Source of the DNA: an uncultured Bacilli bacterium
GTDB taxonomy: Bacteria > Bacillota_I > Bacilli_A > RF39 > UBA660
Direction of reading: 5' to 3'
Assembly (NCBI GenBank): GCA_944371305.1
Contig: CALVXM010000002.1
Span: forward strand, 1 to 34,660
DNA length: 34,660 nucleotides
The notes below the pieces were generated by a model. That model ran no database searches and was not told the origin of the DNA. It was given only the letters and a program-made list of their open reading frames with translations. Every line of letters begins with the position of its first letter. The first letter of the stretch is position 1. Below are positions 355-31,369 of the stretch, piece by piece. The translations under genes were made by a program, and so were the position numbers.

Positions 355-378
355 GAAATAATTCAATTGAATTATTTC
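355..378. repeat. Perfect 24-bp palindrome over the NUDIX stop codon
   Basis: Bases 355-378 equal their own reverse complement (arms GAAATAATTCAA and TTGAATTATTTC, no spacer). The palindrome covers the stop codon and last codon of the NUDIX gene, and ends one base before the inverted repeat at 316-354. As RNA it could fold into a 10-bp stem with an AAUU loop. No T-run follows on either strand. It could protect a 3' end or bind a dimeric protein. Confidence 0.6.
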
Positions 379-860
379 TCTAAAAATTCTAAACAATATC
401 TATAAAACTCTTCATGACTTTTTGAAAATTTATCTTCTTCTATCAATTGTTCTATTTCTTCTCTTGTAGCCCATTTTGCATCTTCTACTTCTTCTTCTTG
501 AAGTACAACATCATTTATATCAATATCTTTATTCATATAATATAAATCAACAAAATCATCTTCTGTCATTATAGATTTAAATAATGTTAATTCATTTTGA
601 TTAACACTTTGTCCTAATTCTTCTTTAATTTCTGTAACAATACCTTCTAAACTACTTTCACCTGATACTGGATGACCTCCTGTTGTAGCCCATCTGCCAT
701 CTTTTCTCAACACTCTTTTTTGTAATAAAAACTCTCCATTGCTATTTTCTATAAATACAACTACAGTAATATAATATCTTCCTGATGGTACGTCTTGTCC
801 TTTTTCTATTACTTCACCAGTCAATATTCTTTTTGAATTATATAAATCTCTTAATTCCAT
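372..860 (-). CDS. NUDIX hydrolase
   Basis: A 162-residue NUDIX-fold pyrophosphohydrolase; the family cleaves nucleoside diphosphates linked to another moiety using Mg2+. The NUDIX box spans about residues 62-84: G62, E68, then T76-E77-I-K-E80-E81-L-G83, matching GX5EX7REUXEEXGU except that the usual Arg is Thr. The GRW.TTGGH stretch before it is typical of the family. I chose the ATG at 860 because GGAGG lies eight bases before it; the in-frame ATG at 884 falls inside the promoter's -10 box. It is the last gene on the minus strand after the glycosyltransferases but has its own promoter. The substrate cannot be read from the sequence. Confidence 0.88.
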   Translation of the reverse strand: MELRDLYNSKRILTGEVIEKGQDVPSGRYYITVVVFIENSNGEFLLQKRVLRKDGRWATTGGHPVSGESSLEGIVTEIKEELGQSVNQNELTLFKSIMTEDDFVDLYYMNKDIDINDVVLQEEEVEDAKWATREEIEQLIEEDKFSKSHEEFYRYCLEFLEK

Positions 861-884
861 TTTCATATCCTCCATTCTTTGCAT

Positions 885-920: not shown

Positions 921-2054
921 CTATTTTATTAAATTTAAATATTTGCGACCAAATAATTCTAATTTATATTGATTAATCCAATCTTCATTTTGTAAAATTC
1001 TACTTAAATCACTCTTAAATATTATATTTAAAACACTAAATAAGGATTCCTCTGTTTTATTAAAAATGTAGCTGTTTTTTGAATTTTTTGCAATTTCTTT
1101 ATATGTGGGAATATCATTTAAAACCGTTGGGATTCCTAATGATAATGATTCTAATGCTGAATATCCAAAACTCTCTGATTGGCTCGGCAACACTACAATT
1201 GATGCTACCTTATATGCATCTGACATATCTTCAAATCTTGTAATTATAATATCAATATTATTTTCCTTACAAAAATTTTCTATATTTTCTTTGTATTGTA
1301 TATACTGTTTATCAGCACCAGTACATACAACTTGGTATTCTTTTTTTATATTATTATCTATTTTAGAAAAAGCTTTCATAAATAACATAGGTTGCTTTTG
1401 GATTGGCTCTAACCTACTAGGTAATAAAATTATCCTTTTTTTGATATCCAAATGTAAACTTTCACAAATAAAAGCATTTTCTTTATTTGATTTTAATCTA
1501 TCAACATCAATCGCATGGGGAATATACTTTACTTCTATATTGGAAAGTTTAGAATACTCATTCGAATAAAATATTGATGGAGCAACAAATATAGTTTTAT
1601 TATTGCATTCCTCATTCATAATATTAATCATAGTATCAAATGCTTCTTTTCCCCAATCTAATTCATATTCAAAGGGATTTGTATGTATTGTGAAAATTCT
1701 CTTTTTATCTTTAAAACAATTTAAAAATAATTGAGAATTCAGTTGAATTAAATCATAATCATTCAAATTAATTAAAGATTCAATCTTATCTGCTAATTGC
1801 TGATATGATTCTTTTAATGAAAAATTATTAAATATATTTCTTAAAAAAAATTCATCTACTATTGTATTAGTTCCAAATAAATTAATACTCTTATAATTGA
1901 CACCATTTGCCTTATATTCAATACCAGATAACATATAAACGTCTACAAGATTTCCAAGTTTTGATAATGAATTAGCTAGATCCATCACAAATCTCTCTGT
2001 CCCACCAACAGCAGTAGGGCTTATTGACCACGGTGTTAATATTGCTATTTTCAC
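921..2054 (-). CDS. GT4-family glycosyltransferase
   Basis: A 377-residue GT-B glycosyltransferase of the GT4 type, expected to move a sugar from a nucleotide donor onto a glycan or lipid acceptor at the cytoplasmic face. The N-terminus KIAILTPW...AVGGTERFVMDLA is the classic acceptor-domain start. The C-terminal half has SRLEPIQKQP and the donor-site E-x7-E motif in SESFGYSALESLSLGIPTV. No membrane span is evident. The start is a GTG that overlaps the upstream glycosyltransferase stop by four bases (GTGA), with GAGGTG five bases ahead, so the two are probably translationally coupled. Donor and acceptor are unknown; the neighbouring ManC-like gene makes GDP-mannose a candidate donor, which is inference only. 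Confidence 0.88.
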   Translation of the reverse strand: MKIAILTPWSISPTAVGGTERFVMDLANSLSKLGNLVDVYMLSGIEYKANGVNYKSINLFGTNTIVDEFFLRNIFNNFSLKESYQQLADKIESLINLNDYDLIQLNSQLFLNCFKDKKRIFTIHTNPFEYELDWGKEAFDTMINIMNEECNNKTIFVAPSIFYSNEYSKLSNIEVKYIPHAIDVDRLKSNKENAFICESLHLDIKKRIILLPSRLEPIQKQPMLFMKAFSKIDNNIKKEYQVVCTGADKQYIQYKENIENFCKENNIDIIITRFEDMSDAYKVASIVVLPSQSESFGYSALESLSLGIPTVLNDIPTYKEIAKNSKNSYIFNKTEESLFSVLNIIFKSDLSRILQNEDWINQYKLELFGRKYLNLIK

Positions 2055-3106
2055 TTAATCACCTCTTTCTCTATATTAAATTTTGTACTTTTATAGCCAT
2101 ATTTGATTTTATTAACATAATTATTATTAGTATGTATTTTTGAATAATTAAAAGCATTTTCTGATAACTTTTTATACTCTTCCTCATTTAAATTTAAATT
2201 CAAATTCCCATTATTTTCGTGAACAACAAAACCAATTTTATTTTTTTCCACAACATTACTAAAATCTAAAACATTGGAGATGATAACCGGTTTACCTTTA
2301 CATAAACCATCAATTAAGGAATTAGGAACATCCTTTACAATTCTTTTTTGTGCTGGGAATGATACATAATCAGCATCTTTAAATATTTGTTCTAATTCTA
2401 AATCATCAAAAACATCGAGTAGTTTAACACGATTATTCAAACCATATTCATTTATCATTTCTTCAAACTGTAATGTATTATTGTCTCTTAATACTACAGA
2501 CAAAGATAAATTTAAATTATTTTTTAGAAGTTCTAATAAATATACTAACCCCCTGTCATATAATGGTTTCCCCTCTGCCATATTCCAACTTGCAAATAAA
2601 ATATTAATTTCACTTGGAATATATTTTTTATTATTACTTTCTCTACTAAATTTAGATGGTGTTGGTGTTATAAAAATTGTACTTTTATCAAAGCCATTAT
2701 TTATTAGAATTTCTTTATGTTGTTGGAGCTCCACAAAAATTCCTTTCAAATATTTATACTTTTTTAAATGTTTACATTCGTCAATAGTTGGTCTTCTATA
2801 AAGTGATATATATAATGGTCTTTTAGTTAAATTTAATAAAATTTTTTTAAATAATGATGGTTCCTCTTGAAATAAATGAATCATCCCTTTTGTACTAATT
2901 AAATTTTTGATTACAGCAAATGGGTAAATGGCTGGATGATATACAAATATATTATCTTTCAATTCATCATCCTGCATAGATTTCTGATTCATAAATCTAG
3001 TTGCAGTAATTATTTTACTATTATTTTCTGACGATTTTAATATTAATTCCATTTGATTGGATACAGCTTCTTTTCTTCTAGTAAAAAAATCATTAATTAT
3101 TAACAT
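2051..3106 (-). CDS. GT-B glycosyltransferase, divergent
   Basis: A 351-residue protein with a GT4-like C-terminal domain: NILFASWNMAEGKPLYDRG, then VKLLDVFDDLELEQIFKDAD, then the region PNSLIDGLCKGKPVIISNV, which occupies the place of the E-x7-E donor motif but with the acidic residues largely replaced (D and G). The N-terminal half (NDFFTRRKEAVSNQMELI) is typical of polysaccharide-cluster GT-B enzymes that start by binding the acceptor. GGAGG lies seven bases before the ATG. It sits 20 bases after the glycerol-1-phosphate dehydrogenase gene and overlaps the next glycosyltransferase by four bases, so all three likely share a transcript. Specificity is unknown. Confidence 0.75.
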   Translation of the reverse strand: MLIINDFFTRRKEAVSNQMELILKSSENNSKIITATRFMNQKSMQDDELKDNIFVYHPAIYPFAVIKNLISTKGMIHLFQEEPSLFKKILLNLTKRPLYISLYRRPTIDECKHLKKYKYLKGIFVELQQHKEILINNGFDKSTIFITPTPSKFSRESNNKKYIPSEINILFASWNMAEGKPLYDRGLVYLLELLKNNLNLSLSVVLRDNNTLQFEEMINEYGLNNRVKLLDVFDDLELEQIFKDADYVSFPAQKRIVKDVPNSLIDGLCKGKPVIISNVLDFSNVVEKNKIGFVVHENNGNLNLNLNEEEYKKLSENAFNYSKIHTNNNYVNKIKYGYKSTKFNIEKEVIK

Positions 3107-3126
3107 AATTTATCCTCCATTCACTA

Positions 3127-4134
3127 TTACAATTTAAACTTTTCTTTATATGTCAGTAAAATTTGCTGTATTTTTAAATTATCACTATAAATTAAATTAA
3201 TCACAGTAAATCTATCTTCTCTGGGTTTTAAATTCATTAAAACAGAAGTCAAAAGATTATAATCTATCTCATATTTTTTATTTAAATCATAAATTTTTAA
3301 TTTTGTTAATGCATTATAAATATCCATAATATTATCAACTTGCATAAAAAGTTGTTGTGCTATAGACATAATTATTATTCCATTAGCTACTGCAATGGCG
3401 TGTGGAACGTTAACTATATGTTCTAATTCTTTTGCAAAAATATGTTCTGATCCACTTTCAGGTTTACCACTACCATATTGATTAGTTATTTCACCAGCTT
3501 CACCAACTAAATCATATATCATTTTACAATTATTTATCAATGAAAAGAATTCTTCTCTTTCAACATATTCTAATGTTAAATTTAATAACTTTTGAGCATC
3601 ATAGAACTCCGAAGTTAATGATTCATTATTATATTTAACAGCCAACTTCCAATCATTCAATGCAGTAAATATAGAAAAAATATCAGCCATACCATAAACA
3701 TTAAACTCTTTTGAATTATTTAACATTTTTTCATCAAATAATATCTTTGTAGGTAAAGATGAATCTAATGTTGTCTTTTTATCATTAACAATCAACGCTA
3801 CTTTATTTGTAGCATACGCATTAGTTGATAACATCGTAGGAATACATATCAATTCTTTATTATGACGATGGGCAATATATTTTCCAATATCAATTGCTGT
3901 TCCACCACCTATAGCAATTATTTTTGAGTATTTATTTAAATTAGAAAAACACTTATCAATTTTATTTTTTTGTTTTGTTACTGTTTTTGTACTATATATA
4001 TCAAATTTAGTTTTATTTAAAAATATATTATTTTTAATAATAGAAGTTTCAGAATAAATTATCAAACTTTTTTCTTCAACCGTTTGCAAATAATCTTGAA
4101 CTCGATTTTTAAAAGTTATTTTCCTAAAATTCAA
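3127..4134 (-). CDS. sn-Glycerol-1-phosphate dehydrogenase (EgsA/AraM-like)
   Basis: A 335-residue member of the iron-containing alcohol dehydrogenase/dehydroquinate synthase fold, closest by motif to G1P dehydrogenases, which reduce dihydroxyacetone phosphate to sn-glycerol-1-phosphate with NAD(P)H. Visible: GGGTAIDIGK (76-85) for the nucleotide phosphates, IPTMLSTNAYAT (98-109), the G1PDH hallmark MAD...ALNDWKLA with D151 as metal ligand, and metal histidines H231 (SGSEH) and H245 (PHAIAVANG). The start is probably TTG at 4134, eight bases after AAGGAG; the upstream GTG at 4143 overlaps that Shine-Dalgarno. G1P makes archaeal lipids and, in Bacillus, heptaprenylglyceryl phosphate; here it lies among glycosyltransferases. 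A related polyol-phosphate substrate is possible. Confidence 0.82.
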   Translation of the reverse strand: MNFRKITFKNRVQDYLQTVEEKSLIIYSETSIIKNNIFLNKTKFDIYSTKTVTKQKNKIDKCFSNLNKYSKIIAIGGGTAIDIGKYIAHRHNKELICIPTMLSTNAYATNKVALIVNDKKTTLDSSLPTKILFDEKMLNNSKEFNVYGMADIFSIFTALNDWKLAVKYNNESLTSEFYDAQKLLNLTLEYVEREEFFSLINNCKMIYDLVGEAGEITNQYGSGKPESGSEHIFAKELEHIVNVPHAIAVANGIIIMSIAQQLFMQVDNIMDIYNALTKLKIYDLNKKYEIDYNLLTSVLMNLKPREDRFTVINLIYSDNLKIQQILLTYKEKFKL

Positions 4135-4155
4135 CTTAACCACTCCTTTATTTAT

Positions 4156-4185
4156 TTTACAAATATGATATAATCATGATATAAT
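4156..4185 (+). promoter_or_regulatory. Promoter of the HAD gene with tandem -10 repeats
   Basis: TTTACA (4156-4161), an 18-base spacer and TATAAT (4180-4185) preceded by TGA (extended -10). A second TGATATAAT lies just upstream: TGATATAATCA occurs twice in tandem (4166-4176, 4177-4187). Each copy is itself a small inverted repeat (TGAT-ATA-ATCA), so the pair could also be an operator. Confidence 0.6.
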
Positions 4186-4202
4186 CATCTTGAGGGATGT
4201 TT

Positions 4203-4835
4203 ATGAAAAATATTAAAAATATAATATTCGATCTAGATGGTACATTATGGGATTCAAGGCAACAAATCGCAAATGCTTGGAATGAGATATTATTGCCTAA
4301 ACTTAATATTACTATGAACATAGATATGATTACTAAATTGATGGGAAAAACAAATGATGAAATAAAGAATCTAGCATTTAAAAACATTCCTATCAATGAA
4401 TCCGACAATTTAATAAAACAGTGTGAACAACAAGAAATAAAATATATATCTAGAAATGGAGCAAACATTTATAAAAATACAATAAACACACTCATAGAAT
4501 TATCAAAAAATCATAATGTTTATATTGTTAGTAATTGCCAATGTGGTTACATTGAGGCATTTTTGAAATATTATAATATGAATAATCTTATTGTTGATTA
4601 TGAATGTAATGGGAATACAAAACTTTCTAAAACGCAAAATATAAAATTAATTATCGATAGAAATCACCTTTCTAGAAAATCTTGTTGCTATATTGGTGAT
4701 ACATTTAGTGATTATGAAGCTGCACAAAATAATAATATAAATTTTATATATGCAAAATATGGTTTTGGTAATTTATCAAACCAACATAATCAAATTAATG
4801 ATATATCAGAACTAATAAATTATTTTAATAAGTAA
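4203..4835 (+). CDS. HAD-superfamily phosphatase (phosphoglycolate phosphatase-like)
   Basis: A 210-residue subclass IA HAD hydrolase. Motif I is IIFDLDGTLWDS with the nucleophilic Asp; motif II is the VYIVSN Ser; motif III is the Lys region near KLSKTQNIK; motif IV is YIGDTFSDYEAA. The helical cap lies between motifs I and II. The likely reaction is removal of a phosphate from a small metabolite. Start choice: GAGGG sits seven bases before the ATG at 4203, but only one base before the in-frame ATG at 4197. It is the only plus-strand gene inside the minus-strand cluster, with its own promoter and a hairpin terminator at its stop. Its position between the NDK-like and G1PDH genes suggests a shared pathway. 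Confidence 0.87.
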   Translation: MKNIKNIIFDLDGTLWDSRQQIANAWNEILLPKLNITMNIDMITKLMGKTNDEIKNLAFKNIPINESDNLIKQCEQQEIKYISRNGANIYKNTINTLIELSKNHNVYIVSNCQCGYIEAFLKYYNMNNLIVDYECNGNTKLSKTQNIKLIIDRNHLSRKSCCYIGDTFSDYEAAQNNNINFIYAKYGFGNLSNQHNQINDISELINYFNK

Positions 4836-4859
4836 ACAACTACTTATTTTTTATTTTTT
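4827..4859 (+). terminator. Terminator of the HAD gene
   Basis: AATAAGTA / TACTTATT form an 8-bp stem around a 6-base loop, followed on the plus strand by TTTTATTTTTT. The stem spans the HAD stop codon and the 3' end of the convergent NDK-like gene. On the minus strand the stem is followed by AAAATAATT, not a U-run, so it should terminate only the HAD transcript. Confidence 0.75.
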
Positions 4860-5709
4860 GCTTAATTTTTTTTGCATCATTTTCATCACATAATACGCTT
4901 ATGTCATCTAAAATTTCACTATAATCAGGAACATGAACTGTTTGTCCTACATAAAATAACAATTTTAAGTCAGCAATTTCGTGCGAATTATCTGACTCAA
5001 TTTTACCTCGTGATAATAATCTACACATTCCGGTTGGATCAAATAATAAATTATTTAACTTTTCATTAAAATATATACCATCAGAAGTTACAATGTTTTT
5101 TAATCCATTATAACCAATTTCACCTCTTAAGGTTCCTGTTTGAAATTTTCCTTGTTTTCCCTTTATACTATTCAAATAATCAGGTAATGGTTGAACAATA
5201 TCCTTAATAGTTCTAACCACTAATAAACAACATAATTTGTTAGCATAATTCAAAGTTCTTGTTGGAAAATCGCATACAGCATCTTCACATATTAATCCAT
5301 GATGATATAATAACCAATATTGTTCAAAATTGATTTTAATATATTTTTTGTAAATTATATCCAAATCCAAAGAATTTAAAAATTTTTCATACTTACTAAC
5401 TAATCCTATGTTTTCTGGTCTAACCAAAATTAAACCCGTATTGTTAAAGTTAATATCAGAAAAAAAATCTTTTCTAAATTCATTTTTTTTCTTTAAATCT
5501 TTATACATTGAATTAATAGCGGATATTTCGCCATTTCTTAATAAATCTGCAATTTGTACACCATAAACATATTTAGCCAATTGTTCATTTGCTTCCATAC
5601 AATAGTCGGCACACAATTCATCATTTATAGAATCATTTATAAAACTTTCACTATAAATTTTTTTAACTATGCCCAGATTTTCTTCTAGTGGATAATAAAT
5701 TTTTTCCAT
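4840..5709 (-). CDS. NDK-fold protein lacking the catalytic histidine
   Basis: A 289-residue protein whose residues ~91-210 follow the order of a nucleoside diphosphate kinase: GLILVRPEN (93-100, NDK has LIKPDG), a helix KYEKFLNSLDLDIIYKKYIK, YHH (135-137), F...CCLLVV, and GTLRGEIG (192-199, NDK GTIRGDFG). N205 falls at the conserved Asn before the catalytic His, but the His position is T208 (NIVT for NIIH). A later stretch, ESDNSHEIADLKLLF (238-252), resembles the NDK segment GSDSxExAxxEIxxFF and may reflect an insertion; it too lacks the His. A ~90-residue N-terminal part is unrecognised. The start is an ATG that shares one base with the upstream TAA stop, with GGGGGTG ahead. Phosphotransfer by the usual mechanism is unlikely; a binding or regulatory role is inference. 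Confidence 0.6.
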   Translation of the reverse strand: MEKIYYPLEENLGIVKKIYSESFINDSINDELCADYCMEANEQLAKYVYGVQIADLLRNGEISAINSMYKDLKKKNEFRKDFFSDINFNNTGLILVRPENIGLVSKYEKFLNSLDLDIIYKKYIKINFEQYWLLYHHGLICEDAVCDFPTRTLNYANKLCCLLVVRTIKDIVQPLPDYLNSIKGKQGKFQTGTLRGEIGYNGLKNIVTSDGIYFNEKLNNLLFDPTGMCRLLSRGKIESDNSHEIADLKLLFYVGQTVHVPDYSEILDDISVLCDENDAKKIKQKIKNK

Positions 5710-6953
5710 TATTTCACCCCCACAATTAATTCCCATTTTTTTTCTAATCTAACAATGTCAGACTCAACCGTTTTTATCCCTCTTTGAATTTCTATTATTT
5801 CTAAATCAAATAAAGATTTTACAGAATGTTTCTGTTCTTTTCCAATCTTTATAATATCCCCAATTTTTATTTCTTGTTGCTTTCCATCTATTACAATAAT
5901 CCCACTTCCTGAAGTAACATACCATACTTCTTCTCTAAATTTGTGATATTGATAGCTTATATTTTTGTTGGCAAATATTTTTAAATATTTTACTTTAACA
6001 TTATTTCCATTTGTTTTATAAGTATCAATAATTTTATAATATCCCCAATGCCTATAAAATATATTGTGTTTATTTTTTTCAAAAAGTGCAATACCATTTG
6101 AAGTGTTTACTATAATCGAATCAGTAACACCATTATTAACAATTTTTTTATTTTCAGTGTTTATAATATTTGTATTATAAATATCGGCATTAGAAACCTT
6201 ACTATACAAATTCTGCCAAGTTCCCAAATCCATCCATTTATTTTTTGTTTTAACAACGTATATTTTTTTTGACTTTTCCAATACTTCTCTATCAAAACTA
6301 TTTTTAGGTAGTTCTTTATAATTTTTATAAAATGTCTTATAGCTATTAACATTTAAATATTTATTTGATATATTACACATAGTCTCTAATTTAAAAGCTA
6401 CTATACCACTATTCCAATACGCCCCATTATTAATTAAATTGATAGCTTTGTGTTCATTCGGTTTTTCAACAAATTTTTGAACTATATTTTTTTGTTCAAT
6501 AATATATCCATATTCTTTTGTAGGATATGTTGGCTCAATACCTATTAATCCAAAATCTATTTCATCATTTAAGTGATAAGCCATTTCATTTAAAACATCA
6601 TAAAAGTTTTGATCTACATCGTGATCTATTGGTATTGTAATTATTGTTTCATCTAAATTAATTTTTTCAACATATTTAAAATAATTTGCTATATTTAACA
6701 TTGCACCAAAAGTGCCATGTGCCTCCGGTTCTTTTATTATTCTAATATTATTTCCCAATTGTTTTTTGACAAATTTACTCTGTTTTTTATTTGTTGCAAC
6801 ATATATTGAAAATCCCTGACTTTTTAATTTTTTATAAGTTGAAACTAACATTGTTTCTTCATTAAAAAATTTCACATATTGTTTAGGAACTTTTTTAGTA
6901 GATACAGGCCATAATCTTGTCCCTAGACCACCAGCTAATAAAACCACTTTCAT
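5709..6953 (-). CDS. manC: Mannose-1-phosphate guanylyltransferase-like protein with C-terminal cupin
   Basis: A 414-residue protein with the ManC/AlgA arrangement: a nucleotidyltransferase domain (LAGGLGTRLWP 6-16, K24, FVEKP 161-165, WNSGI 180-184, WMDLGTW 240-246) and a cupin of the type II phosphomannose isomerase kind (300-404, SYQYHKFREEVW at 333-344, QKHSV at 375). The family makes GDP-mannose from mannose-1-phosphate and GTP. It is shorter than usual (~450-480). In the cupin the usual QxHxHRxE zinc site reads Q-Y-H-K-F-R-E-E, so one ligand His is Phe and isomerase activity is doubtful. It heads the minus-strand cluster behind a sigma-A-type promoter and a ~130-base leader. Another NDP-sugar product cannot be excluded. 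Confidence 0.8.
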   Translation of the reverse strand: MKVVLLAGGLGTRLWPVSTKKVPKQYVKFFNEETMLVSTYKKLKSQGFSIYVATNKKQSKFVKKQLGNNIRIIKEPEAHGTFGAMLNIANYFKYVEKINLDETIITIPIDHDVDQNFYDVLNEMAYHLNDEIDFGLIGIEPTYPTKEYGYIIEQKNIVQKFVEKPNEHKAINLINNGAYWNSGIVAFKLETMCNISNKYLNVNSYKTFYKNYKELPKNSFDREVLEKSKKIYVVKTKNKWMDLGTWQNLYSKVSNADIYNTNIINTENKKIVNNGVTDSIIVNTSNGIALFEKNKHNIFYRHWGYYKIIDTYKTNGNNVKVKYLKIFANKNISYQYHKFREEVWYVTSGSGIIVIDGKQQEIKIGDIIKIGKEQKHSVKSLFDLEIIEIQRGIKTVESDIVRLEKKWELIVGVK

Positions 6954-6987
6954 TCTTACTATTTCCCCCTCTATTTATATGAAAAAT

Positions 6988-7017
6988 GGGACATTAAACC
7001 CAAAGATTCAATATCCC
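6988..7017 (-). terminator. Leader hairpin (possible attenuator) before manC
   Basis: On the minus strand GGGATATTGAA, an 8-base loop and TTTAATGTCCC pair over 11 bp (two G-U), followed by ATTTTTC. It lies between the promoter at 7117-7090 and the start at 6953. It may end transcripts of the kinase gene upstream, act as an attenuator of the cluster, or both. The U-run is short. Confidence 0.45.
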
Positions 7018-7089
7018 CTCATAAAATCCACTAATTATATTTGAAAAAGTCATAAATTTCATACAATATACCACCAATTCATAGCAATT

Positions 7090-7117
7090 ATTATATACAA
7101 TTTTTACCAAAAGTCAA
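7090..7117 (-). promoter_or_regulatory. Promoter of the manC-led cluster
   Basis: On the minus strand TTGACT (7117-7112), a 16-base spacer and TATAAT (7095-7090). It begins six bases after the stop of the histidine kinase gene and gives a leader of about 130 bases before the manC start. Confidence 0.65.
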
Positions 7118-7122
7118 CAATT

Positions 7123-9198
7123 TTATTGGCAATCTTCTCTTTTTCCATCTTTTATTACATATTCTTCTTGTGTTTCAGAGTCAAAGACATAAGTCGCTTC
7201 ATTAGAATTCTGCATTATATTTTGTAAAACATCAATATTGTTTTTTGTTTCATTAAGCTCGATAGTTTCAATTTTGGATTCCTCTACCTTAACTTGTTCA
7301 ACTGACTTTTTTTGTTTAAATACTAAATCTAATTTTTCTTTTATTTGTTCTCTGTTAAATGGTTTTGAAATATAATCAACAAAACCTTGTGCTATATATC
7401 TTTCTCTAGCGCCAGCAACAGCATCAGCTGTAAGTGCAATCACTGGTATATTAAAATCAGTTTTTTCTTTTAGTTTAGCTAAGGCTGATTCACCACTCAT
7501 ATTAGGCATCATTATATCCATTAAAATTAAATCATAATTATTATTTTGGTTTACTTTCTCTAAACATTGTAATCCATCATAACATTCCTCAATTTCAAAA
7601 TCAAAATCAGATAAAGCTCTAGTTGCTACTTTAATATTTAATTTGTTATCATCTACTATTAGAACTCTTTTATGTCCATAATCGGTTGTTTGTTGTACTT
7701 TAGAAGCTTCAATAGTTTCATTTTTTGTAAAAAACATTTGATTAGACATCATTGTTGATTGATTTGGATCAACTAATTTACTAATTTTTTGTGGTAATTG
7801 AACCATAAACATTGATCCTTGCCCAAATTGAGATTGAACATTTATTTTTCCACCCATCATTTCAACCAATGATTTTGTAATAGCAAGACCTAAACCAGTC
7901 CCCTCTGTTGTAGAATTTTTTTCAACATCCAGTCTTTCAAATTTTGTAAATAACTTATTTATTAATTCTGCTTTAATACCTCTACCAGTGTCTTGTACCG
8001 AAATAATCAAAGTGCATAAATCCCCTTGATTAATACATCTTACATTAACTGTAACATTTCCTTGTTCAGTGTATTTTATTGCATTTGATAATAAGTTATT
8101 AACAACTTGCTTAATATGTGTCTTGTCCCCGATTAATTCATAAGGTACATCTTCAGCTATATCAAGCTTAAATTCTATTGGTTTATCACCAATTCTAGTT
8201 GTAGTAACCTTACACAATTTTGTAATTTCTTCCCTAAAATTATAAGGATTAGTTACTATTTCTAGTTTTTCTGATTCTATTTTATTTATATCTAAAATAT
8301 TACCAACTATTTCTAATAATGTTTGGCTAGCATTTTGTATATCTTTAGTATCTTCAACAACTTCTGGTGGCACTTGATCCTTATAAGTTGCAATATCCTC
8401 TGATAATCCAACTATAGCATTTAAAGGTGTTCTAATTTCATGTGACATACTTGATAAGAAATCCGATTTTGCTCTGTTGGCTTTTTCTGCGTGTTCCTTG
8501 GCTAAATTCAAATTTTGAATTAACTTTAAATCCGGATTTTCAATAAAGAAATACATAATTACAAGAATCACAGTATGTAAAGAAGTTAATATCAAAATTC
8601 TTTTGTCAACAAATTGAGTTAAACTACCTAATGCTCCAAATAATAGCACAGCTATTAAAATAGCATATTGTTGTTTATTTTTATTCTTAACTTTCCATAT
8701 TGAAACGATACTTCTAACTAGCCATATTGCAATTTGTAATCCAGACACAATAAATAATAAATCTACTGTTGTCCCGTATGTATAATATCCACCATCCTTA
8801 AAAACGTTTAAAGGAAAATAATAAGTGACAAATATCATCGCAAAATACGGAACTAAGGAAAGTAACAAATCTCTTTTAAATGTTTTTACTATATCAAAAT
8901 CATTTTTACCATAATTTTTATTTGTTAATAACATCAAATAAATATTTAAAGCAAAGTTGAATGTAACAATATATGCTACATAAGATTTTAGAATAAACAT
9001 TTCAAAAAATGTGTTAGCATTCGTCAATATTACTACATAATAACATCCTAATTCCAAAATTAATCCAACTAAATTTAATATCATTATTCCTAATAATAAA
9101 CTATTTTCAAATATCTTAATTCTTTTCTTTGAAAAATGTACTATCAAAAAAATCACAATATAAAATAGTGCAGATATTGGAAATCCTATAAAAGTCAT
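7123..9198 (-). CDS. Hybrid sensor histidine kinase with multi-pass membrane input domain
   Basis: A 691-residue membrane kinase. Residues 1-220 hold about seven hydrophobic segments (e.g. 8-21, 35-58, 72-92, 112-130, 146-165, 180-197, 203-219), a 7TM-like input domain with no obvious extracellular sensor fold. Then HisKA (H253 in [10 protein letters not shown]), HATPase_c (N-box N368/N372, DTGRG 403-407, GTGLGL 433-438) and a receiver (D516-D517, phospho-acceptor D561 in [12 protein letters not shown]612 in SKPF). The last ~70 residues are acidic and unrecognised; there is no Hpt or DNA-binding domain. GGAGG lies six bases before the ATG. No response regulator gene adjoins, so phosphate must go to a partner elsewhere. 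The ligand is unknown. Confidence 0.92.
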
Positions 9199-9242
9199 TT
9201 CTTTCCTCCTCTACCCTTATAAAAACATTGTATCATTTAACC

Positions 9243-9272
9243 AAAAAAAAGACAATACATTGATTGTCTTTT
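9243..9272 (-). terminator. Terminator of the AMP-ligase gene
   Basis: AAAAGACAAT / ATTGTCTTTT form a 10-bp stem with a 6-base loop; on the minus strand eight T's follow. A further copy of TTGATTGTCT lies directly beside it (9271-9280), a short direct repeat. It separates the AMP-ligase gene from the kinase gene. Confidence 0.85.
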
Positions 9273-9288
9273 GATTGTCTTTAAAGAC

Positions 9289-11049
9289 CTATATACTCAT
9301 TTTAAGTTTTTTAACTTGTTCGATTTCATTGCCTTTTTTGCTTTCTTCTCTTTCAATAGAAATAGCATTTATTCTATCTCCAGTAATTTGTAAGTAATCT
9401 TCAGTTTCATATTTTAACGTTTCATAATCTCTTTTTCCACTTATTGGACTTGTTGGAAACTTGTCTCTTAATTTATATGCATAAGGGATTGCTTCCGGAT
9501 TTGTAAATTCTTCTGCCAATTCTGCATTAATTACTGAAAGTACATCTATAGGTAAGCATCTTGCTGATTCTTCTAAAACTATATGTGCAACTGGAACTAC
9601 TTTTCCGTCTACTGTTAACGGAACTAATTCACATTCTTTAACATATTTATTACTTGCAATTTTGTTTTCAATTTCAAATAAGTATACTATATTACCTTTT
9701 GAATCAATGAATGAATCGGTACTTCTACCTATTACTCTATAGATACCTTTTTCATCTACGGTAGCTATGTCACCAGTATTTCCCCAAAGTGTACCATTTT
9801 TGTCAACTTCAAAAAATTTTTCAGTAGCCTCAGGATTTTTTAAATAACCTTTCATCATACAAGGCGTTGATATTTTGATAATTCCTTTTTCACCTATACC
9901 TACAGGTTCATTTGTAATTGGATTTACTATTTTAGCCTCTACAAATGGCATCAATAGGCCAGATTCATTTGTTCTATCTTCAATATCCATATTAAACATT
10001 GCCATAGTACCAAATTCACTCATACCATAACCAATAATTAAATCTTTTTTTACCCCAGCTTTATTCATTTTTTCATTTATTTGTATTGCCAACTTTGTTG
10101 GAACTGGTTCGCCACCTGTGAATGGCATATCCAAAAATGATAAGCTACCATCCTTTATATCTTTATTTAATAAACTAATATAATGTCCTAATGAACCAAC
10201 TACTATATTTGGTTCATATTTTTTTAAATCTGCTAGAAATGTTTGTGGATTATAAACTGGTTGCATAACATTAGTACAACCAAATGCTAATGGAGTATTA
10301 ATACAATGACATAAACTTGTACCATACATTGGTGGAATTAAAACTAAATTTCTATCACCAACTTTTGAACCAAATCCATCTTTTGCATCATATATTGAAA
10401 TCATATTATTCATAGAATCGTTAGTTAAAACTACACCTTTTGGATTTCCTGTCGAACCGCTTGTATATACAATAGCAGTTTCTTTTTGTTCTACAAATTC
10501 AGGTGAAACTATTTCTTTTCTAGAATTAGAACCTAATCTATTAAATTCAGGATATGTAATATAATCAACACCTGATATTAATTGTTCTTTTTTTAAATTT
10601 TTTCTTCTAACTAATGTTTTATATAAGAAAGATGCTTGTTCTGTAATAGACGAAACCATAACTTTTTCTACATTAGTGTTGGCAATAGCATCTTGTAACA
10701 TTGGATAAAATCTATCTAATACAATTAATAATTTTGATCCTGTTTCATTAATATATTTTTTACTATTTACTTTAAAATAATTTGGATTAACTAATTGAGT
10801 AACAGCTCCAATTCTATTTAATGCATAAAAATGTGCCATACTATCAACCGTACCTGTCATACACATTGTTACGATGTCACCATTTTTAACACCTAACTCA
10901 ATAAAACCTTTTGTTAAAGTATCAACTAATTCAAAAAATTCTTTATAAGTCAATTTACTTCCAAAACTTTCAAAAGCTACTTCATTTAAATTATTTTGAT
11001 TTCTTTTTACAATATTCTCAATAACTGTACTTTCTGTTTTTTTTATCAC
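9289..11049 (-). CDS. Acyl-CoA synthetase/AMP-ligase family protein
   Basis: A 586-residue ANL-superfamily adenylate-forming enzyme, expected to activate a carboxylic acid with ATP. Motifs: TSGSTGNPKGVVLT (about residues 196-209), IGYGMSEFGTMA (A5), GNTGDIATVDEKG (A7, the ATP ribose Asp), GRSTDSFIDSKGN (A8 hinge) and the A10 catalytic Lys in SPISGKRDYETLK. The C-terminal ~35 residues are charged and beyond the usual end. The start is GTG at 11049 with GGGGG eight bases ahead; in-frame codons upstream to 11133 run through the promoter and are not coding. It is transcribed alone between a promoter and a terminator. The substrate is unknown: medium-chain fatty acid, aryl acid or a carrier-protein-bound product are all possible. 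Confidence 0.88.
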   Translation of the reverse strand: MIKKTESTVIENIVKRNQNNLNEVAFESFGSKLTYKEFFELVDTLTKGFIELGVKNGDIVTMCMTGTVDSMAHFYALNRIGAVTQLVNPNYFKVNSKKYINETGSKLLIVLDRFYPMLQDAIANTNVEKVMVSSITEQASFLYKTLVRRKNLKKEQLISGVDYITYPEFNRLGSNSRKEIVSPEFVEQKETAIVYTSGSTGNPKGVVLTNDSMNNMISIYDAKDGFGSKVGDRNLVLIPPMYGTSLCHCINTPLAFGCTNVMQPVYNPQTFLADLKKYEPNIVVGSLGHYISLLNKDIKDGSLSFLDMPFTGGEPVPTKLAIQINEKMNKAGVKKDLIIGYGMSEFGTMAMFNMDIEDRTNESGLLMPFVEAKIVNPITNEPVGIGEKGIIKISTPCMMKGYLKNPEATEKFFEVDKNGTLWGNTGDIATVDEKGIYRVIGRSTDSFIDSKGNIVYLFEIENKIASNKYVKECELVPLTVDGKVVPVAHIVLEESARCLPIDVLSVINAELAEEFTNPEAIPYAYKLRDKFPTSPISGKRDYETLKYETEDYLQITGDRINAISIEREESKKGNEIEQVKKLKMSI

Positions 11050-11393: not shown

Positions 11394-12362
11394 TTAACCT
11401 CGTGTCAATGTTAACTCTGTTTCAATAACTATGCAAGTAGAAAAAACAAAAAAACAGTAAATTACTGTTTTTTGCAATGATAACTTATTATCTCTTATTT
11501 TTTCTCGTAATCCTTTTCGCCTACAATCATCTGGTACCGCTACTACTATTACTGTGACACATAAAGTTAAAGCATATAAAATATGACCGCTTATAATAGG
11601 CAAATTAGTAACAGTATCCTTGATCAAATTAATATCAAAATTATTTTTTATAAAAATAATTGAAAATAAATAAGAAACAAATACTAAAAAGGCTCCAATA
11701 TAACCAATCTTACTAATTACCTGCGCCAATTTTCTTAATCTTAATTTAAGTGGACTTTCTGGTTGTTCTTGTTGTAATTCTCGAGATATAGCGCCATAAA
11801 AAGTATTATCGCCAACTTTAGTAACAATCATTATAGCTTGTTTCGAATAGACAATTGTACCACGATAGACAATCTTATTTTCAATATTTTTATAAATTTC
11901 TTTAGTTTCTCCAGTCAAACTAGATTCATCAACAGTAATTTCTCCTTCAATAATCTCACCATCAGCAGGTATTCTATCACCTGATTCTAATAAAACAATA
12001 TCTCCAACAACTACTTCTTCAATATCAATTTCTTCTATCTTGTTATTTCTTTTAACTCGACATTTTATTTTTGAAGATTCTTCTTGTAATTTTTTGAAAG
12101 CTTTTTCACTTCCATATTCACTAACTGTTGAAATAAAAGAAGCTAGAAATATCGCAATAACGATTCCAACAGTTTCATACCAATCAAAACTTTGAATTAA
12201 AAAAACCGTTTTAATTCCTAAAGCAATCAATAAGATTCTAATAATTGGATCGCCTAAAGTCGCAATATATTGTTTTATAAAACTGTTTTTTTTGCTAGCA
12301 TTTATTACATTGGCTCCAAATTTTTTTCTTGATTCAATTACTTCATTATCAGTTAGTCCCAT
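11394..12362 (-). pseudogene. P-type cation ATPase, truncated 5' fragment
   Basis: Residues 1-277 match the start of a P2-type (Ca2+-type) ATPase: N-terminal domain (GLTDNEVIESRKKFGAN), M1-M2, the actuator domain with DGEIIEGEITVDESSLTGETKE, and M3-M4 up to ALTLCVTVIVVAVP. Intact enzymes have about 850-900 residues; the phosphorylation motif DKTGTLT, the nucleotide domain and M5-M10 are absent. After AVP the expected EGLP is replaced by unrelated residues, and the frame reads through a strong terminator (11441-11473). The last residues, IETELTLTRG, look like a shrunken IETxxxx...DKTGTLTRG, as if an internal deletion had occurred. It still has a good ribosome site (AGGTG). It cannot be an active pump. 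A full-length-type relative lies at 32773. Confidence 0.85.
11441..11473. terminator. Strong bidirectional terminator inside the ATPase fragment
   Basis: AAAAAACAGTAA and TTACTGTTTTTT are perfect 12-base arms around one base (hairpin of about 11 bp). The minus strand continues TTTTTTTG and then TTTTTTC; the plus strand has six T's. It lies inside the reading frame of the broken ATPase, so the final ~25 codons are unlikely to be expressed. Confidence 0.85.
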
Positions 12363-12488: not shown

Positions 12489-13946
12489 ATGGATCAAGAA
12501 TTAGATAAAATAATTAATCATATTAAAACAATAAATGGTAATAGTACTGATATCAATGTTCGATATTTCAACATTCATAATCAAAAAGTAGCTTTTATGT
12601 TTTTAGAAAGCGTCGCTAACGATGACAAAATTAGTAATTTTTTAGGTAAAAGCTTAAGTATTAGTGTAAGAAGTAAAAAAAATTTATTTGAAGATTTATT
12701 TAATCATATTAATAATACTATTCCCAATAGTAAAGTAAAAATAATAAATAATTATGATGATATTTTTTATCATTTAGCAAGTGGTTTTACTTGTGTATTT
12801 ATCGATGGTTACAATAAAGCAATCACTTTAGAAACTAAAGCTTTATTAGATCGAAGTATCACTGAAGCGACTAGTGAACCAGTCCTAAAAGGACCTAAAG
12901 ATTGTTTTATCGAAAATATATTAGCTAATATGGGTTTAATTAGAAAAAGAATTAAAGATCCTAATCTTTATTTTGAAGAGACTAAAGTTGGCAGAAGAAC
13001 CAAAACTAAAGTTGTAATTGGTTATATTAAAGATATTGCTGATGAAGAAAAAGTAAATTTATTAAAACAAAAACTAGAAAAAATTAATATTGATGGCATA
13101 ATTGATTCTAATTATATAAAAGAATTGCTATGCAATAATCAAAAATCTTTTTTACCACGAGTTATATCTACAGAAAGACCAGATTTAACCGCCATGGGAT
13201 TATTAGACGGTAAAATAGCAATCATCGTTGAAAACACTCCCTACGTTTTATTACTTCCTACCGTATTTGTTGATTTTTTCAAATCACCTGAAGACTATTA
13301 TACAAAACCATTTAATGCCTCTTTTACAAGAATTTTAAGATATATTGCATTCTTTATTGCTATTTTAGTGCCAGCTTTTTATATTGCCGTAACAACATTT
13401 AATATGGAAATTGTTCCTAGTTCTTTATTAATATCATTTTCAATTCAAAGGGAAAGTGTTCCCTTTCCCACCATAATAGAAGTTCTAATACTAGTAATTT
13501 CTTATGAGATATTAAGAGAAGCCGATACAAGAAAACCACAAATCATGGGCGCATCCATCAGCATTGTCGGTGCTTTAATTTTAGGTGAAGCAGCTGTTTC
13601 TGCCGGCATTATATCACCAATTGTTGTTATTGTTATTTCTATTTCAGCCGTTTCAGGAATGGGTTTCAATGATCCAGACATAACAAATGCAATTAGAACA
13701 TGGAGAATATTATTTATGTTGGCAGCATGTTTATTCGGTATTGTTGGTATAGTTATTTTATTCATTATCTTTATAACTAAATTGAACAGTATTGAAGTAT
13801 TAGGTACACCTTATTTAGCGCCTTTATCTCCTTTTAGTTTAAAAGATTTTAAAAATTCTTTGACAAGATTTCCTCAGCAAAAAATCAAGACAAGACCGAC
13901 TTATTTTAATAAAAAAAATATTAATAGAATAGGAAGTGACAAATGA
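12489..13946 (+). CDS. gerKA: Spore germination protein GerKA/GerAA family
   Basis: A 485-residue A subunit of a GerA-type germinant receptor, which sits in the inner spore membrane and senses small nutrients. The N-terminal ~270 residues are the soluble domain, with the family stretches DGYNKAITLETK, RSITEATSEPVLKGPKDCF, and LLDGKIAIIVENTPYVLLLP. The C-terminal half has four to five membrane spans (about 290-440), with READTRKP and NDPDITNAIRTWR typical of the family. The operon runs A-C-B: its ATGA overlap with gerKC indicates translational coupling. AGGTG lies five bases before the ATG. Specificity (amino acid or sugar) cannot be told. Confidence 0.95.
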   Translation: MDQELDKIINHIKTINGNSTDINVRYFNIHNQKVAFMFLESVANDDKISNFLGKSLSISVRSKKNLFEDLFNHINNTIPNSKVKIINNYDDIFYHLASGFTCVFIDGYNKAITLETKALLDRSITEATSEPVLKGPKDCFIENILANMGLIRKRIKDPNLYFEETKVGRRTKTKVVIGYIKDIADEEKVNLLKQKLEKINIDGIIDSNYIKELLCNNQKSFLPRVISTERPDLTAMGLLDGKIAIIVENTPYVLLLPTVFVDFFKSPEDYYTKPFNASFTRILRYIAFFIAILVPAFYIAVTTFNMEIVPSSLLISFSIQRESVPFPTIIEVLILVISYEILREADTRKPQIMGASISIVGALILGEAAVSAGIISPIVVIVISISAVSGMGFNDPDITNAIRTWRILFMLAACLFGIVGIVILFIIFITKLNSIEVLGTPYLAPLSPFSLKDFKNSLTRFPQQKIKTRPTYFNKKNINRIGSDK

Positions 13947-15103
13947 AAAAACTGTTAATCATTCCATTAATATTCCTATTAACTGGGTGTTGGAATTATC
14001 GCGAACTTAATCAATTAGCTATAACAACTGGGATAGCAGTAGATAAAGAAAATGATAATTATAAAATAACTATTATGATAGCTAATTCTAAAAAAAGCAG
14101 TAGTTCAGATGGTAGTATAACGCCATCAGCAGCTGTTTATGATGGAACAGGTCAGACAATTTATGAAGCCTTTAAAGACACTTCTTTAAGTGTATCTAAA
14201 CAAATTTATCTAAGCCATATTGATGTATTAGTACTATCTGAAGAAATTGCGAAAAATAATTTAACTGATGTAATTGATTTCCTATTTCGTTATCCTCAAA
14301 CAAGAAATAATTTTTATTTAGTTTTAGCAAAAGATAAAAAAGCTAGCGACATCTTAAAAGTAACTACGCCAATAGAGACATTTCCCTCTCAAAATCTAGC
14401 TAAAAATCTTGAAATAACTGATAAATTACAAGGATTTACTTATACAGTCGATTTTACTGATTTCACAAAATCACTTGTATCAGAAGGGATAAATCCTATT
14501 CTTCCATCAGTAACAATCATCGGAAATAGTGAAGAAGGAAATAAAGAAGAAAACGTACAACAAAATGAACCATCTACTTATTTAAAATTAGACATGTTAG
14601 GATTATTTAAAAAAGATAAATTTGTTGCATGGTCTAATCCTAATCAAAGCAAAGGAATCAATATAATCAATAATAAAATATACATATTAGGAGTTATCAT
14701 TAATTACCAAAATGAAAAAATAGTAACAGAAATAACCGAAATGAAAACTGATTTTAAAGTTGAAAATAACAAAGTGAAAATAACTATTGATACAACAGGA
14801 GCAATTCAAGAGGTAAATGCTAATGTTGATCTATATAATCTTAAAACTATTGAAGAAATTCAAAATTCAGATGTTGAAAAAATTAAAGAATATGTTAATG
14901 ATGCTATTAATTTAGCCAAAGATAATAAAACGGATATTTTTGGTTTTGGAAACTATGTTTATAAGAATAATCCTAAAAAATGGAATGAAATAAAGGATAA
15001 ATGGGACGATGAAATATTCCCTAGTTTAGAAGTAGAAATAGAAGTCAATCTAAAACTTCAGGCCAAAGGTTCAATAAATAATATCGTCGAGGTGAGAGAA
15101 TGA
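13943..15103 (+). CDS. gerKC: Spore germination lipoprotein GerKC/GerAC family
   Basis: A 386-residue C subunit of the germinant receptor. It has a lipoprotein signal (MKKLLIIPLIFLLTGCW, lipobox LTGC with C16 lipidated) followed by the family start NYRELNQLAITTGIAVDK. Further family stretches are SLSVSKQIYLSHIDVLVLSE, FLFRYPQTRNNFYLVLAK and the C-terminal INLAKDNKTDIFGFGNYVYK. It is anchored to the outer face of the spore inner membrane. It overlaps gerKA and gerKB by four bases on each side. Length is normal for the family. Confidence 0.95.
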   Translation: MKKLLIIPLIFLLTGCWNYRELNQLAITTGIAVDKENDNYKITIMIANSKKSSSSDGSITPSAAVYDGTGQTIYEAFKDTSLSVSKQIYLSHIDVLVLSEEIAKNNLTDVIDFLFRYPQTRNNFYLVLAKDKKASDILKVTTPIETFPSQNLAKNLEITDKLQGFTYTVDFTDFTKSLVSEGINPILPSVTIIGNSEEGNKEENVQQNEPSTYLKLDMLGLFKKDKFVAWSNPNQSKGINIINNKIYILGVIINYQNEKIVTEITEMKTDFKVENNKVKITIDTTGAIQEVNANVDLYNLKTIEEIQNSDVEKIKEYVNDAINLAKDNKTDIFGFGNYVYKNNPKKWNEIKDKWDDEIFPSLEVEIEVNLKLQAKGSINNIVEVRE

Positions 15104-16173
15104 AAGTAACTAATTCAGAATATGCTTGTTTATCATCTTTTTTAATAAGATCATTATTTTTTGGACCAGCTATTTATAGTATCTTACATTTTGCTTTACA
15201 AGATGGCTGGATAAGTATCATCGTTTCATTTATTTTAAGCTTTATTCCTTTAATTATTTATTATAAGCTACTAAATTGTAATCCTAATGATAATATTGTT
15301 AGCTTAAATAACAAATTAGGATTAATAGGAAAAATAATTAATACAATTCTAACTGCTTTTGTTATTTTTCACGCCAGTCTAATTCTATGGAATTTAACTA
15401 ACTTCATATATTCACAATTTCTATTCCAAACACCATTAATTGTTATTGCTATTGTTATTTCCTTTGGCATATTTTATATCAGTATTAAAAACCTAACAAC
15501 TATTGCTAGAACTGGAACTGTTTTCTTTATTATTAGCACTATACTATATTTTATAGCAGCTTTATCTTTAATTAGTAAATGCGATTTAAATGGTCTTAAA
15601 CCCATTTTCAACTCAGGTATTATGCCAATTCTAAAGGGAAGCTTTTCTTCTTTAGGACTTAATATATTTCCTTTATTTATAATTTTAATAATACCGAAAA
15701 ATAACATCAAAAATAATAACAAAATTATATCATCTTTCTTTAAAGTTTATATTTTCAGATATTTGTGCATGCTATCAGTATTAGTAATTTGTGTAGCTAT
15801 TTTGGGAATAGAATTAACTAACCTTTATCAATATCCGGAATATCACATTTTAAAAACTATTAATATTGCTAACTTTTTTCAAAGAGTCGAATCAGTTTTA
15901 TCAGTTCAGTGGATATTTGATGCTGTCATGTCAATAGCATTATGCCTTTATTATGTTAAAGAAAGTATAACCAAAACATTTAATTTAAAAAACAAATTTA
16001 ATTTAATAAATATTATTTGCATTATTAGTATTTTAATTATCGCAAATTATATCTTTACTAGTAATACGGTAGCAGAAACATTTTATAAAAATATTTATCC
16101 TTTTCTAACTTCAATCTTTTTTTTAATTATTCCTTTGATAATATTAATAATAGTTAAAGTTAAGAAAACTTAA
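15100..16173 (+). CDS. gerKB: Spore germination permease-like protein GerKB/GerAB family
   Basis: A 357-residue B subunit of the receptor, of the APC-type transporter fold, with about ten membrane segments. In known receptors this subunit binds the germinant. Visible family signatures are the hydrophobic N-terminus, GIMPILKGSF...FPLF and LYQYPEYHILKTINI followed by NFFQRVESVLSVQWIFDA. It starts within the gerKC stop (ATGA). Its own stop abuts the stop of the convergent DUF368 gene with no bases between, and the terminator lies inside that gene. Confidence 0.93.
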   Translation: MKVTNSEYACLSSFLIRSLFFGPAIYSILHFALQDGWISIIVSFILSFIPLIIYYKLLNCNPNDNIVSLNNKLGLIGKIINTILTAFVIFHASLILWNLTNFIYSQFLFQTPLIVIAIVISFGIFYISIKNLTTIARTGTVFFIISTILYFIAALSLISKCDLNGLKPIFNSGIMPILKGSFSSLGLNIFPLFIILIIPKNNIKNNNKIISSFFKVYIFRYLCMLSVLVICVAILGIELTNLYQYPEYHILKTINIANFFQRVESVLSVQWIFDAVMSIALCLYYVKESITKTFNLKNKFNLINIICIISILIIANYIFTSNTVAETFYKNIYPFLTSIFFLIIPLIILIIVKVKKT

Positions 16174-20562: not shown

Positions 20563-20592
20563 TATTAGAAAATAAATGAAGGGGTGGATTAT

Positions 20593-21039
20593 ATGTGTAA
20601 TAATGTAGAAAATGACTCTTGCAAATGCATTGCTGAAATACTAACCGTTATTAATATCCTACAACAAAACGCAAGTTGCTGTGGCGACTGTTGTCTAGAT
20701 ACTTGTGATCGTGGATTTTTAGGATGTGGAACAACTACTGTTGGCTGTAATACAAGACCTGTAACGTTATATACTTGTAACGGTAATGGAACACCTTGGA
20801 CCATGCCAACTACCAAAGACAATGTCGATTGTTCAACAACACCAGGATCTTGTTCTAGTGTATTCCGTGTTGAAAAAATTGATGGTTGTTGTGCTACTTT
20901 TAGAGTTTTAGCTGCTAACCCAGATCCAACAGAAGCACTTACGATACCATACGTATCAACAAATTCTTTTTTTACGATGAATCTAAACTGTGTATGTAGT
21001 CTAAAATGTTTACAAGATACTTTTGTAGCAGGTGTTTAA
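20593..21039 (+). CDS. CotY/CotZ/ExsY-family spore coat protein
   Basis: A 148-residue cysteine-rich protein (18 Cys) matching the spore coat/exosporium CotY-CotZ-ExsY family: NVENDSCKCIAEIL at the start, SCCGDCCLDTC, then FRVEKIDGCCATFRVL and the C-terminal FFTMNLNCVCSLKCL. In Bacillus these proteins self-assemble into disulfide-linked sheets of the outer coat or exosporium. I chose the ATG at 20593, five bases after GGGGTGG; the in-frame GTG at 20584 is inside that Shine-Dalgarno. It is a single-gene transcript ended by a shared terminator with the convergent gene. Confidence 0.9.
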   Translation: MCNNVENDSCKCIAEILTVINILQQNASCCGDCCLDTCDRGFLGCGTTTVGCNTRPVTLYTCNGNGTPWTMPTTKDNVDCSTTPGSCSSVFRVEKIDGCCATFRVLAANPDPTEALTIPYVSTNSFFTMNLNCVCSLKCLQDTFVAGV

Positions 21040-28747: not shown

Positions 28748-28773
28748 GAAAACTTATTCATTTTGAATAAGTT
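28748..28773 (-). terminator. Terminator of the phosphomannomutase gene
   Basis: AACTTATTCA / TGAATAAGTT form a perfect 10-bp stem with a 3-base loop (28751-28773); the minus strand continues TTTTCATTT. It overlaps the stop codon and directly precedes the prfA promoter. Confidence 0.75.
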
Positions 28774-31221: not shown

Positions 31222-31369
31222 TATTTTTCTCACTTTCTATTAAAATTATCGTTTTAACCTTCGATACATCATCTTTTTTTGTTATTTCATCAATAAAAGT
31301 TTGACTAACTTTTAACCCATCCAATTTTACACTTGCCAACGCTTGAATTACTGCTTCATTATTTAACAT
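31205..31369 (-). CDS. VbhA/FicA-like Fic antitoxin, 54 aa
   Basis: A 54-residue protein: MLNNEAVIQALASVKLDGLK, then VSQTFIDEITKKDDVSKVKT, then a basic tail. The order A-xx-S-VKL-D-G-L-x-(V/P)S...F matches VbhA-type antitoxins (ASxxLEGL.xS..). The class I inhibitory motif SxxxE(G/N) reads S13-VKL-D17-G18, with Asp in place of the Glu that blocks ATP gamma-phosphate. GGTGG lies four bases before the ATG. Its stop lies 17 bases inside the fic gene, in another frame, as in toxin-antitoxin pairs. It is too short for usual gene calls. Confidence 0.75.
   Translation of the reverse strand: MLNNEAVIQALASVKLDGLKVSQTFIDEITKKDDVSKVKTIILIESEKNNDRRI

Follow-up and report, generated by a model that had tools for sequence, protein, structure and literature searches.

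At positions 921-6953 of a 34,660-nucleotide stretch of DNA, hereafter the window, which represents contig C2 of the 1.14-Mb, 92% complete genome of a small, gut-type uncultured Bacilli bacterium (G000), lies a cluster of six genes that is conserved as a unit in a second genus. The cluster encodes a ManC-like sugar-phosphate nucleotidyltransferase fused to a type II phosphomannose isomerase (PMI) cupin domain (5709-6953, minus strand; 414 amino acids; PF00483, E=6.5e-32; PF01050, E=9e-15), a protein resembling nucleoside diphosphate kinase (NDK) that is without a Pfam family of its own (4840-5736, minus strand; open reading frame (ORF) of 298 amino acids), and a HAD_2-type phosphatase (4197-4835, plus strand; PF13419, E=6e-22). 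These are joined by an NAD(P)-dependent dehydrogenase of the glycerol-1-phosphate dehydrogenase (G1PDH) family with an altered substrate motif (3127-4143, minus strand; PF13685, E=3e-16) and two family 4 (GT4-type) glycosyltransferases, the divergent GT A (2051-3106, minus strand; PF00534, E=2.5e-9) and GT B (921-2054, minus strand; PF00534, E=3.9e-20). A previous sequence-only reading of this DNA had named the same genes, all of which are present, and its assignments of the ManC-like protein, the HAD phosphatase and the two glycosyltransferases were borne out. Because the HAD gene is encoded on the plus strand and the other five on the minus strand, the six genes do not form one operon; the HAD gene is situated between the NDK-like and the dehydrogenase genes, convergent with the former and divergent from the latter, and has a promoter-like site of its own at 4156-4185. 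GT B overlaps GT A by 4 bases, and the NDK-like protein likely starts near 5709, overlapping the stop of the ManC gene, which it overlaps or abuts in both genera. Upstream of the ManC gene there is a vegetative-type promoter-like site (TTGACT-16-TATAAT), and between a strong promoter-like site and the gene lies a terminator-like hairpin (7017-6988), a possible attenuator; the ManC leader gave no Rfam riboswitch match.

The six genes recur, together with the adjoining NUDIX hydrolase gene (372-884, minus strand; PF00293, E=8.5e-15), in genome G273 (locus L006), which belongs to another genus of the same family, in identical order and with identical orientations, the inverted HAD gene included. 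The proteins of the two loci share 49% (ManC-like), 54% (NDK-like), 56% (HAD phosphatase), 53% (dehydrogenase), 63-64% (GT A), 59.5% (GT B) and 72% (NUDIX) identity. The spacers in the cluster are near zero, and the upstream flanks differ between the window and G273. The six genes form a true conserved unit, beyond chance: the gene set, sought in other genomes, was found in G273, and the neighbours do not vary freely, the same gene types and the same two glycosyltransferases being kept. A second line of evidence comes from the closest relative, a congener (genome G756, locus L005), to which the window is 96-100% identical at the DNA level from about 7150 to 1150, with nearly all 300-base steps at 97% or above, compared with mostly 86-95% in the flank on the kinase side and 86-91% on the NUDIX side. 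The synonymous divergence (dS) between the two is 0.015-0.107 for the six genes and 0.41 for the NUDIX gene. Because of this identity step around the six genes and the low dS within them relative to the NUDIX gene, a recent exchange of the block as a cassette is probable. The ratio of non-synonymous to synonymous divergence (dN/dS) is 0.07-0.38, and the six genes are under purifying selection. The NUDIX gene, which has its own promoter-like site at 913-885, is a linked neighbour in both genera outside the exchanged block, where its dS places it, and it was rejected as a full member of the cluster.

The cluster is rare and is carried by two independent lineages only. In samples that overlap one another, 3 of 291 genomes of the family and 2 of 395 of the class have the NDK-like gene, and 1 of 174 genomes of the family has GT A. 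Of 18 congeners, 3 have a ManC gene, which in one case encodes a different, plain ManC. A search of genome contigs returned only the near-identical locus L005. Phages, plasmids and viral contigs yielded nothing for the NDK-like protein; for the dehydrogenase, nothing was obtained in viral contigs and only distant relatives in phages and plasmids, and no further carrier of its clade was found in the relatives searched. A role in defence was discarded, as PADLOC matched none of the ManC-like, NDK-like and dehydrogenase proteins.

The ManC-like protein has the domain order of bifunctional, cupin-fused ManC and 34-37% full-length identity to such proteins from capsule-type loci of Bacteroidales and Bacillus plasmids, although it reaches only 178 bits against TIGR01479 (GMP_PMI), whose cut-off is 373 bits. 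The cupin metal residues Q335, H337, E342 and H376 are invariant among homologues and kept in the window protein. The RNTAP-type loop is not kept: where capsule-type homologues have an RDTFPAI-type sequence, the loop reads HGTFGAM (window) or IGTFGAI, so that TFPA has become TFGA, and the plain ManC of a congener has RNTAPC there. This alteration, together with the overlap or abutment of the NDK-like and ManC genes in both genera, would fit a pathway in which the substrate activated by the ManC-like protein is a polyol phosphate and not mannose-1-phosphate, and in which the product or its precursor is handled by the NDK-like protein, giving a nucleotide-activated polyol. The cupin domain with all four metal residues points instead to mannose-6-phosphate, we know of no polyol-phosphate-activating enzyme of the ManC-like kind, and we consider such a pathway very improbable.

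For the NDK-like protein the sequence-only reading had proposed an NDK fold, which is weakly borne out. Its motifs VRPE, GTLRGE and QTVHVPD parallel IKPD, GTIRGD and NxxHGSD of NDK, and it shares with PF00334 the beta-alpha pattern and GT[IL]RG[DE]; it also has a conserved His in xxVH[VI]PD. The window copy has no Pfam match and the L006 copy stays under the 27-bit cut-off of the Pfam NDK model (15.8 bits, E=0.013), while a profile-profile comparison with six true NDKs by hhalign gave a score of 27.4, above each of 200 column shuffles (maximum 23.1). H268 of the VHVPD motif is invariant in the four copies and meets the catalytic His of NDK only once the insertion is removed from the profile. 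This insertion of about 50 residues before the His and a 95-residue N-terminal extension set the protein apart from NDK, and since the active-site Lys is replaced by Arg106 and the Asn by Gln, it should not be filed as an NDK; it appears to represent an undescribed family. A canonical NDK was not found in G000 or in 20 relatives. A paralogue with 36-37% identity is encoded in genome G013 (contig C4, locus L007), in a cluster at 3240-9828 of that locus together with a queuosine salvage protein (PF10343), a FolE2 GTP cyclohydrolase, a GTP cyclohydrolase II-like protein, a CYTH protein and, preceded by a SAM riboswitch, an S-AdoMet-synthetase-like protein. By its look that cluster serves a pathway for a modified purine or a pterin, and the theme common to the NDK-like protein and its paralogue may be the use of GTP.

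The dehydrogenase likely starts at a TTG codon at 4134, three codons into the longest ORF, which fits a Shine-Dalgarno sequence AAAGGAG and the start of its homologue. The DWKLA and SGSEH hallmarks noted in the sequence-only reading are real, and its metal ligands D151/H231/H245 are D154/H234/H248 in the numbering of the longest ORF, an offset that fits the TTG start; they align with D171/H254/H271 of GldA. The NAD motif GGGTAID is present. An AlphaFold model of the protein (pLDDT 90.8) is closest among structures in the PDB to the G1PDH of M. jannaschii with NADPH and dihydroxyacetone phosphate (DHAP) (4rgq/4rfl; TM 0.75-0.78; 22-23% identity), and glycerol dehydrogenases rank behind it. Compared with G1PDH more broadly (EgsA/AraM; PDB 4rgq, 5fb3, 9h4x), the fold (TM 0.73-0.78), GGGxxxD, the three metal ligands, DWKLA and SGSEH are shared, but identity is 15-24%, HA stands in place of HG at the third ligand, and the substrate-site motif S-x-D-G is lost, Asp being replaced by Asn and Gly by Ala, to give S-T-N-A in both the window and the L006 enzymes. 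The position concerned, Asn108 in the window protein, aligns with Asp121 of Escherichia coli GldA, which is described as a site of glycerol binding in glycerol dehydrogenase (PMC4731958). All G1PDH-like relatives have S-x-D-G or A-N-D-G, and D-G is kept in L008, L023, L024, L025, L036 and L048 and in the aligned PDB chains. As the glycerol-dehydrogenase-like protein L051 also has Asn at this position, an activity on a small polyol is possible.

The altered motif goes along with a low score against the NCBIfam G1PDH model NF002022, which has a cut-off of 413 bits: the window protein scores 103.8 and the L006 protein 96 bits, the weakest of the relatives tested, and bacterial relatives with an intact motif, at 167-250 bits, likewise stay under the cut-off. 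In a tree of 33 homologues the window and L006 proteins form a fully supported pair on a very long separate branch (stem of 2.67 changes per column) on the G1PDH-like side, with a poorly supported exact position (82/66). A comparably distant G1PDH homologue from Halobacterium acts as a glycolaldehyde reductase and has no activity on G1P or DHAP (PMC9700705). Owing to the S-T-N-A motif, the low NF002022 score and this precedent, the protein is best described from its sequence as a G1PDH-family enzyme whose substrate is unproven. The sequence-only reading had gone further, to a candidate pathway in which true glycerol-1-phosphate (G1P) is made and then either activated or joined to a glycan or lipid that contains mannose. 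The nearest structural match to a G1PDH with NADPH and DHAP, the kept DWKLA, SGSEH and metal ligands, and the absence of a PcrB-type prenyltransferase fit this proposal: as had been noted, no PcrB is visible, the whole G000 assembly giving no PF01884 match at 92% completeness while a Bacillus subtilis control was detected, so any G1P would go elsewhere. Against it stand the change to S-T-N-A in both lineages, the lowest NF002022 score among the relatives tested and a cluster that contains no glycerol-phosphate cytidylyltransferase or glycerophosphotransferase. The family assignment is supported by the fold, which is nearest to G1PDH; G1P as the product is not supported, archaeal-type glycerol phosphate is unproven here, and the proposal as a whole is in our view unlikely.

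Taken by gene family, the six proteins could be arranged in a different pathway, and we tentatively prefer, at well short of even confidence, to regard the cluster as an exchanged six-gene cassette for a cytoplasmic mannosyl-polyol glycoside. We infer all substrates and the order of the steps from the gene families. The cupin domain would convert fructose-6-phosphate to mannose-6-phosphate, a mutase would yield mannose-1-phosphate, for which the phosphomannomutase/phosphoglucomutase encoded on the same contig is a candidate (28772-30124, minus strand; PF02878/02879/02880/00408, all above cut-off), and the nucleotidyltransferase domain would form GDP-mannose. The NDK-like protein may recharge GDP to GTP for the GDP-mannose cycle. 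The dehydrogenase would reduce DHAP or a related small keto-phosphate; the resulting polyol phosphate would be G1P or, through the Asp-to-Asn change, a different product; one or both GT4 proteins would place mannose on this polyol-phosphate acceptor; and the HAD phosphatase, which is 56% identical and kept in orientation in L006, would finally strip the phosphate. A sugar nucleotide, a glycosyltransferase and a HAD phosphatase make up the two-step pathways for sucrose, glucosylglycerol, mannosylfructose and mannosylglycerate, and a sugar-nucleotide enzyme, a soluble glycosyltransferase and a HAD phosphatase are found here together in one conserved cluster, which additionally has a putative polyol-phosphate dehydrogenase of its own, the NDK-like protein and a second GT4.

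The mannosyl-polyol reading is supported by the conserved order and orientation, the identity step, the purifying selection, the kept cupin ligands and the mutase on the contig, by the dehydrogenase fold nearest to a G1PDH with DHAP, and by the canonical NDK not being found and the NDK-like paralogue of L007 lying beside GTP users. It is further supported by the lack of a clear membrane protein among the six on a hydropathy scale, on which 7-9 segments are seen in controls encoded on this contig; the dehydrogenase has one stretch with a hydropathy of up to 1.78, which lies in a helix of the soluble fold. Several findings weigh against it. Of the two glycosyltransferases, GT B has an intact EX7E motif (ESFGYSALE) but matches a sucrose-phosphate synthase model at E=0.015 only, the EX7E motif of GT A is degenerate (KDVPNSLID) and the protein has no PDB match, and neither GT4 shows good likeness to characterised glycosyl-polyol-phosphate synthases. 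As the nucleotide/sugar motif of the ManC-like protein is altered, GDP-mannose is not certain. The homology to NDK is weak, though real-looking, and an AlphaFold prediction of the NDK-like protein from four sequences gave no usable fold (pLDDT 44). Finally, cassette exchange is also typical of surface-glycan loci, and genes for export may be located in other parts of the genome.

This last point leads to a surface or cell-wall glycan, in which a mannose- and polyol-containing saccharide would be lipid-linked and exported by genes elsewhere, and exchange would reflect antigenic variation. The capsule-type loci that carry the cupin-fused ManC relatives, the cassette exchange at one locus and a related dehydrogenase in a glycan locus of the same family fit such a glycan. 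The latter, a polyol-phosphate glycan locus of a known kind (G303, contig C11; L076 4971-12120), contains, side by side, a G1PDH-like dehydrogenase with the canonical motif, a short nucleotidyltransferase and a NagD-type HAD protein, and in addition a WecA/TagO-type transferase, a flippase-type protein and a CDP-glycerol glycerophosphotransferase (PF04464). It resembles the window cluster, as do the pneumococcal genes gtp1/gtp2/gtp3/wchX, annotated as putative glycerol-phosphate capsule genes (PMC3493582; PMC6332807) and likened here by annotation rather than by alignment, in bringing together glycosyltransferases, a phosphatase, a nucleotidyltransferase and a G1PDH-like dehydrogenase. The short nucleotidyltransferase of G303 is LicC/MobA-like and its HAD protein NagD-type, whereas the window cluster has the ManC/PMI and NDK-like proteins. 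Neither PF04464 nor a flippase, both present in G303, occurs at the window locus or at L006, and without these markers the window cluster differs from a gtp-type glycan locus. In a search confined to the loci, no flippase, initiating transferase, polymerase or glycerophosphotransferase was found in or beside the cluster in either genus, and the six proteins look soluble. A surface glycan is a rather unlikely explanation, somewhat less likely than the mannosyl-polyol glycoside. The gtp annotations and the G303 locus also mean that the general idea of a glycan supplied by a G1PDH-like enzyme has precedents, contrary to the novelty that the sequence-only reading had seen in attaching such a phosphate to a glycan.

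A soluble pathway would also suit the decoration of spore coats, in which coat proteins would be glycosylated in the mother cell and no flippase would be needed. GerA-type germination receptor genes (12489-16173) and a CotZ-like gene (20584-21039) are located on the same contig of this 1.1-Mb genome, and the cluster has no membrane components. The promoter-like site upstream of ManC is of vegetative type, however, the cluster is missing from nearly all relatives sampled, and the spore genes lie at least 5 kb from it, with none seen near the G273 cluster. Spore-coat decoration is improbable, and sporulation-specific control was dismissed, as nothing but the presence of spore genes speaks in its favour.

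Elsewhere in the window, both assemblies end just past the NUDIX gene, where positions 1-371 hold the start of a short ORF and an inverted repeat (GACTGTTGA...TCAACAGTC), which suggests a repeated element. The 56-amino-acid ORF at this left end, taken by eye for the start of a transposase, is not claimed as such: it has no Pfam match, and only partial further matches in genomic DNA were obtained. A P-type cation ATPase ORF at 11394-12362 looks cut short (322 amino acids), a longer one is present at 32773-34620, and a Fic-domain protein is encoded at 30592-31233.

No literature linking NDK, GDP-mannose and G1P in one cluster was found. A more far-reaching reading, and an improbable one, is that the cassette makes a new nucleotide-activated or glycosylated polyol, yielding a mannosyl-polyol lipid head group or solute not known in bacteria. 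In it, the divergent dehydrogenase would make a polyol phosphate other than glycerol-3-phosphate, which would be activated by the ManC-like protein and the NDK-like protein, the latter as an undescribed family of histidine phosphotransferases with an insertion before the active site. If the dehydrogenase makes G1P, the cluster would represent a bacterial use of the archaeal glycerol stereoisomer beyond heptaprenylglyceryl phosphate; if it does not, it would provide a clean natural substrate change in the G1PDH family, both lineages having fixed the Asp-to-Asn replacement. In either case the pathway, with its six exchanged genes in a 1.1-Mb genome, is compact and self-contained and can easily be expressed and tested.

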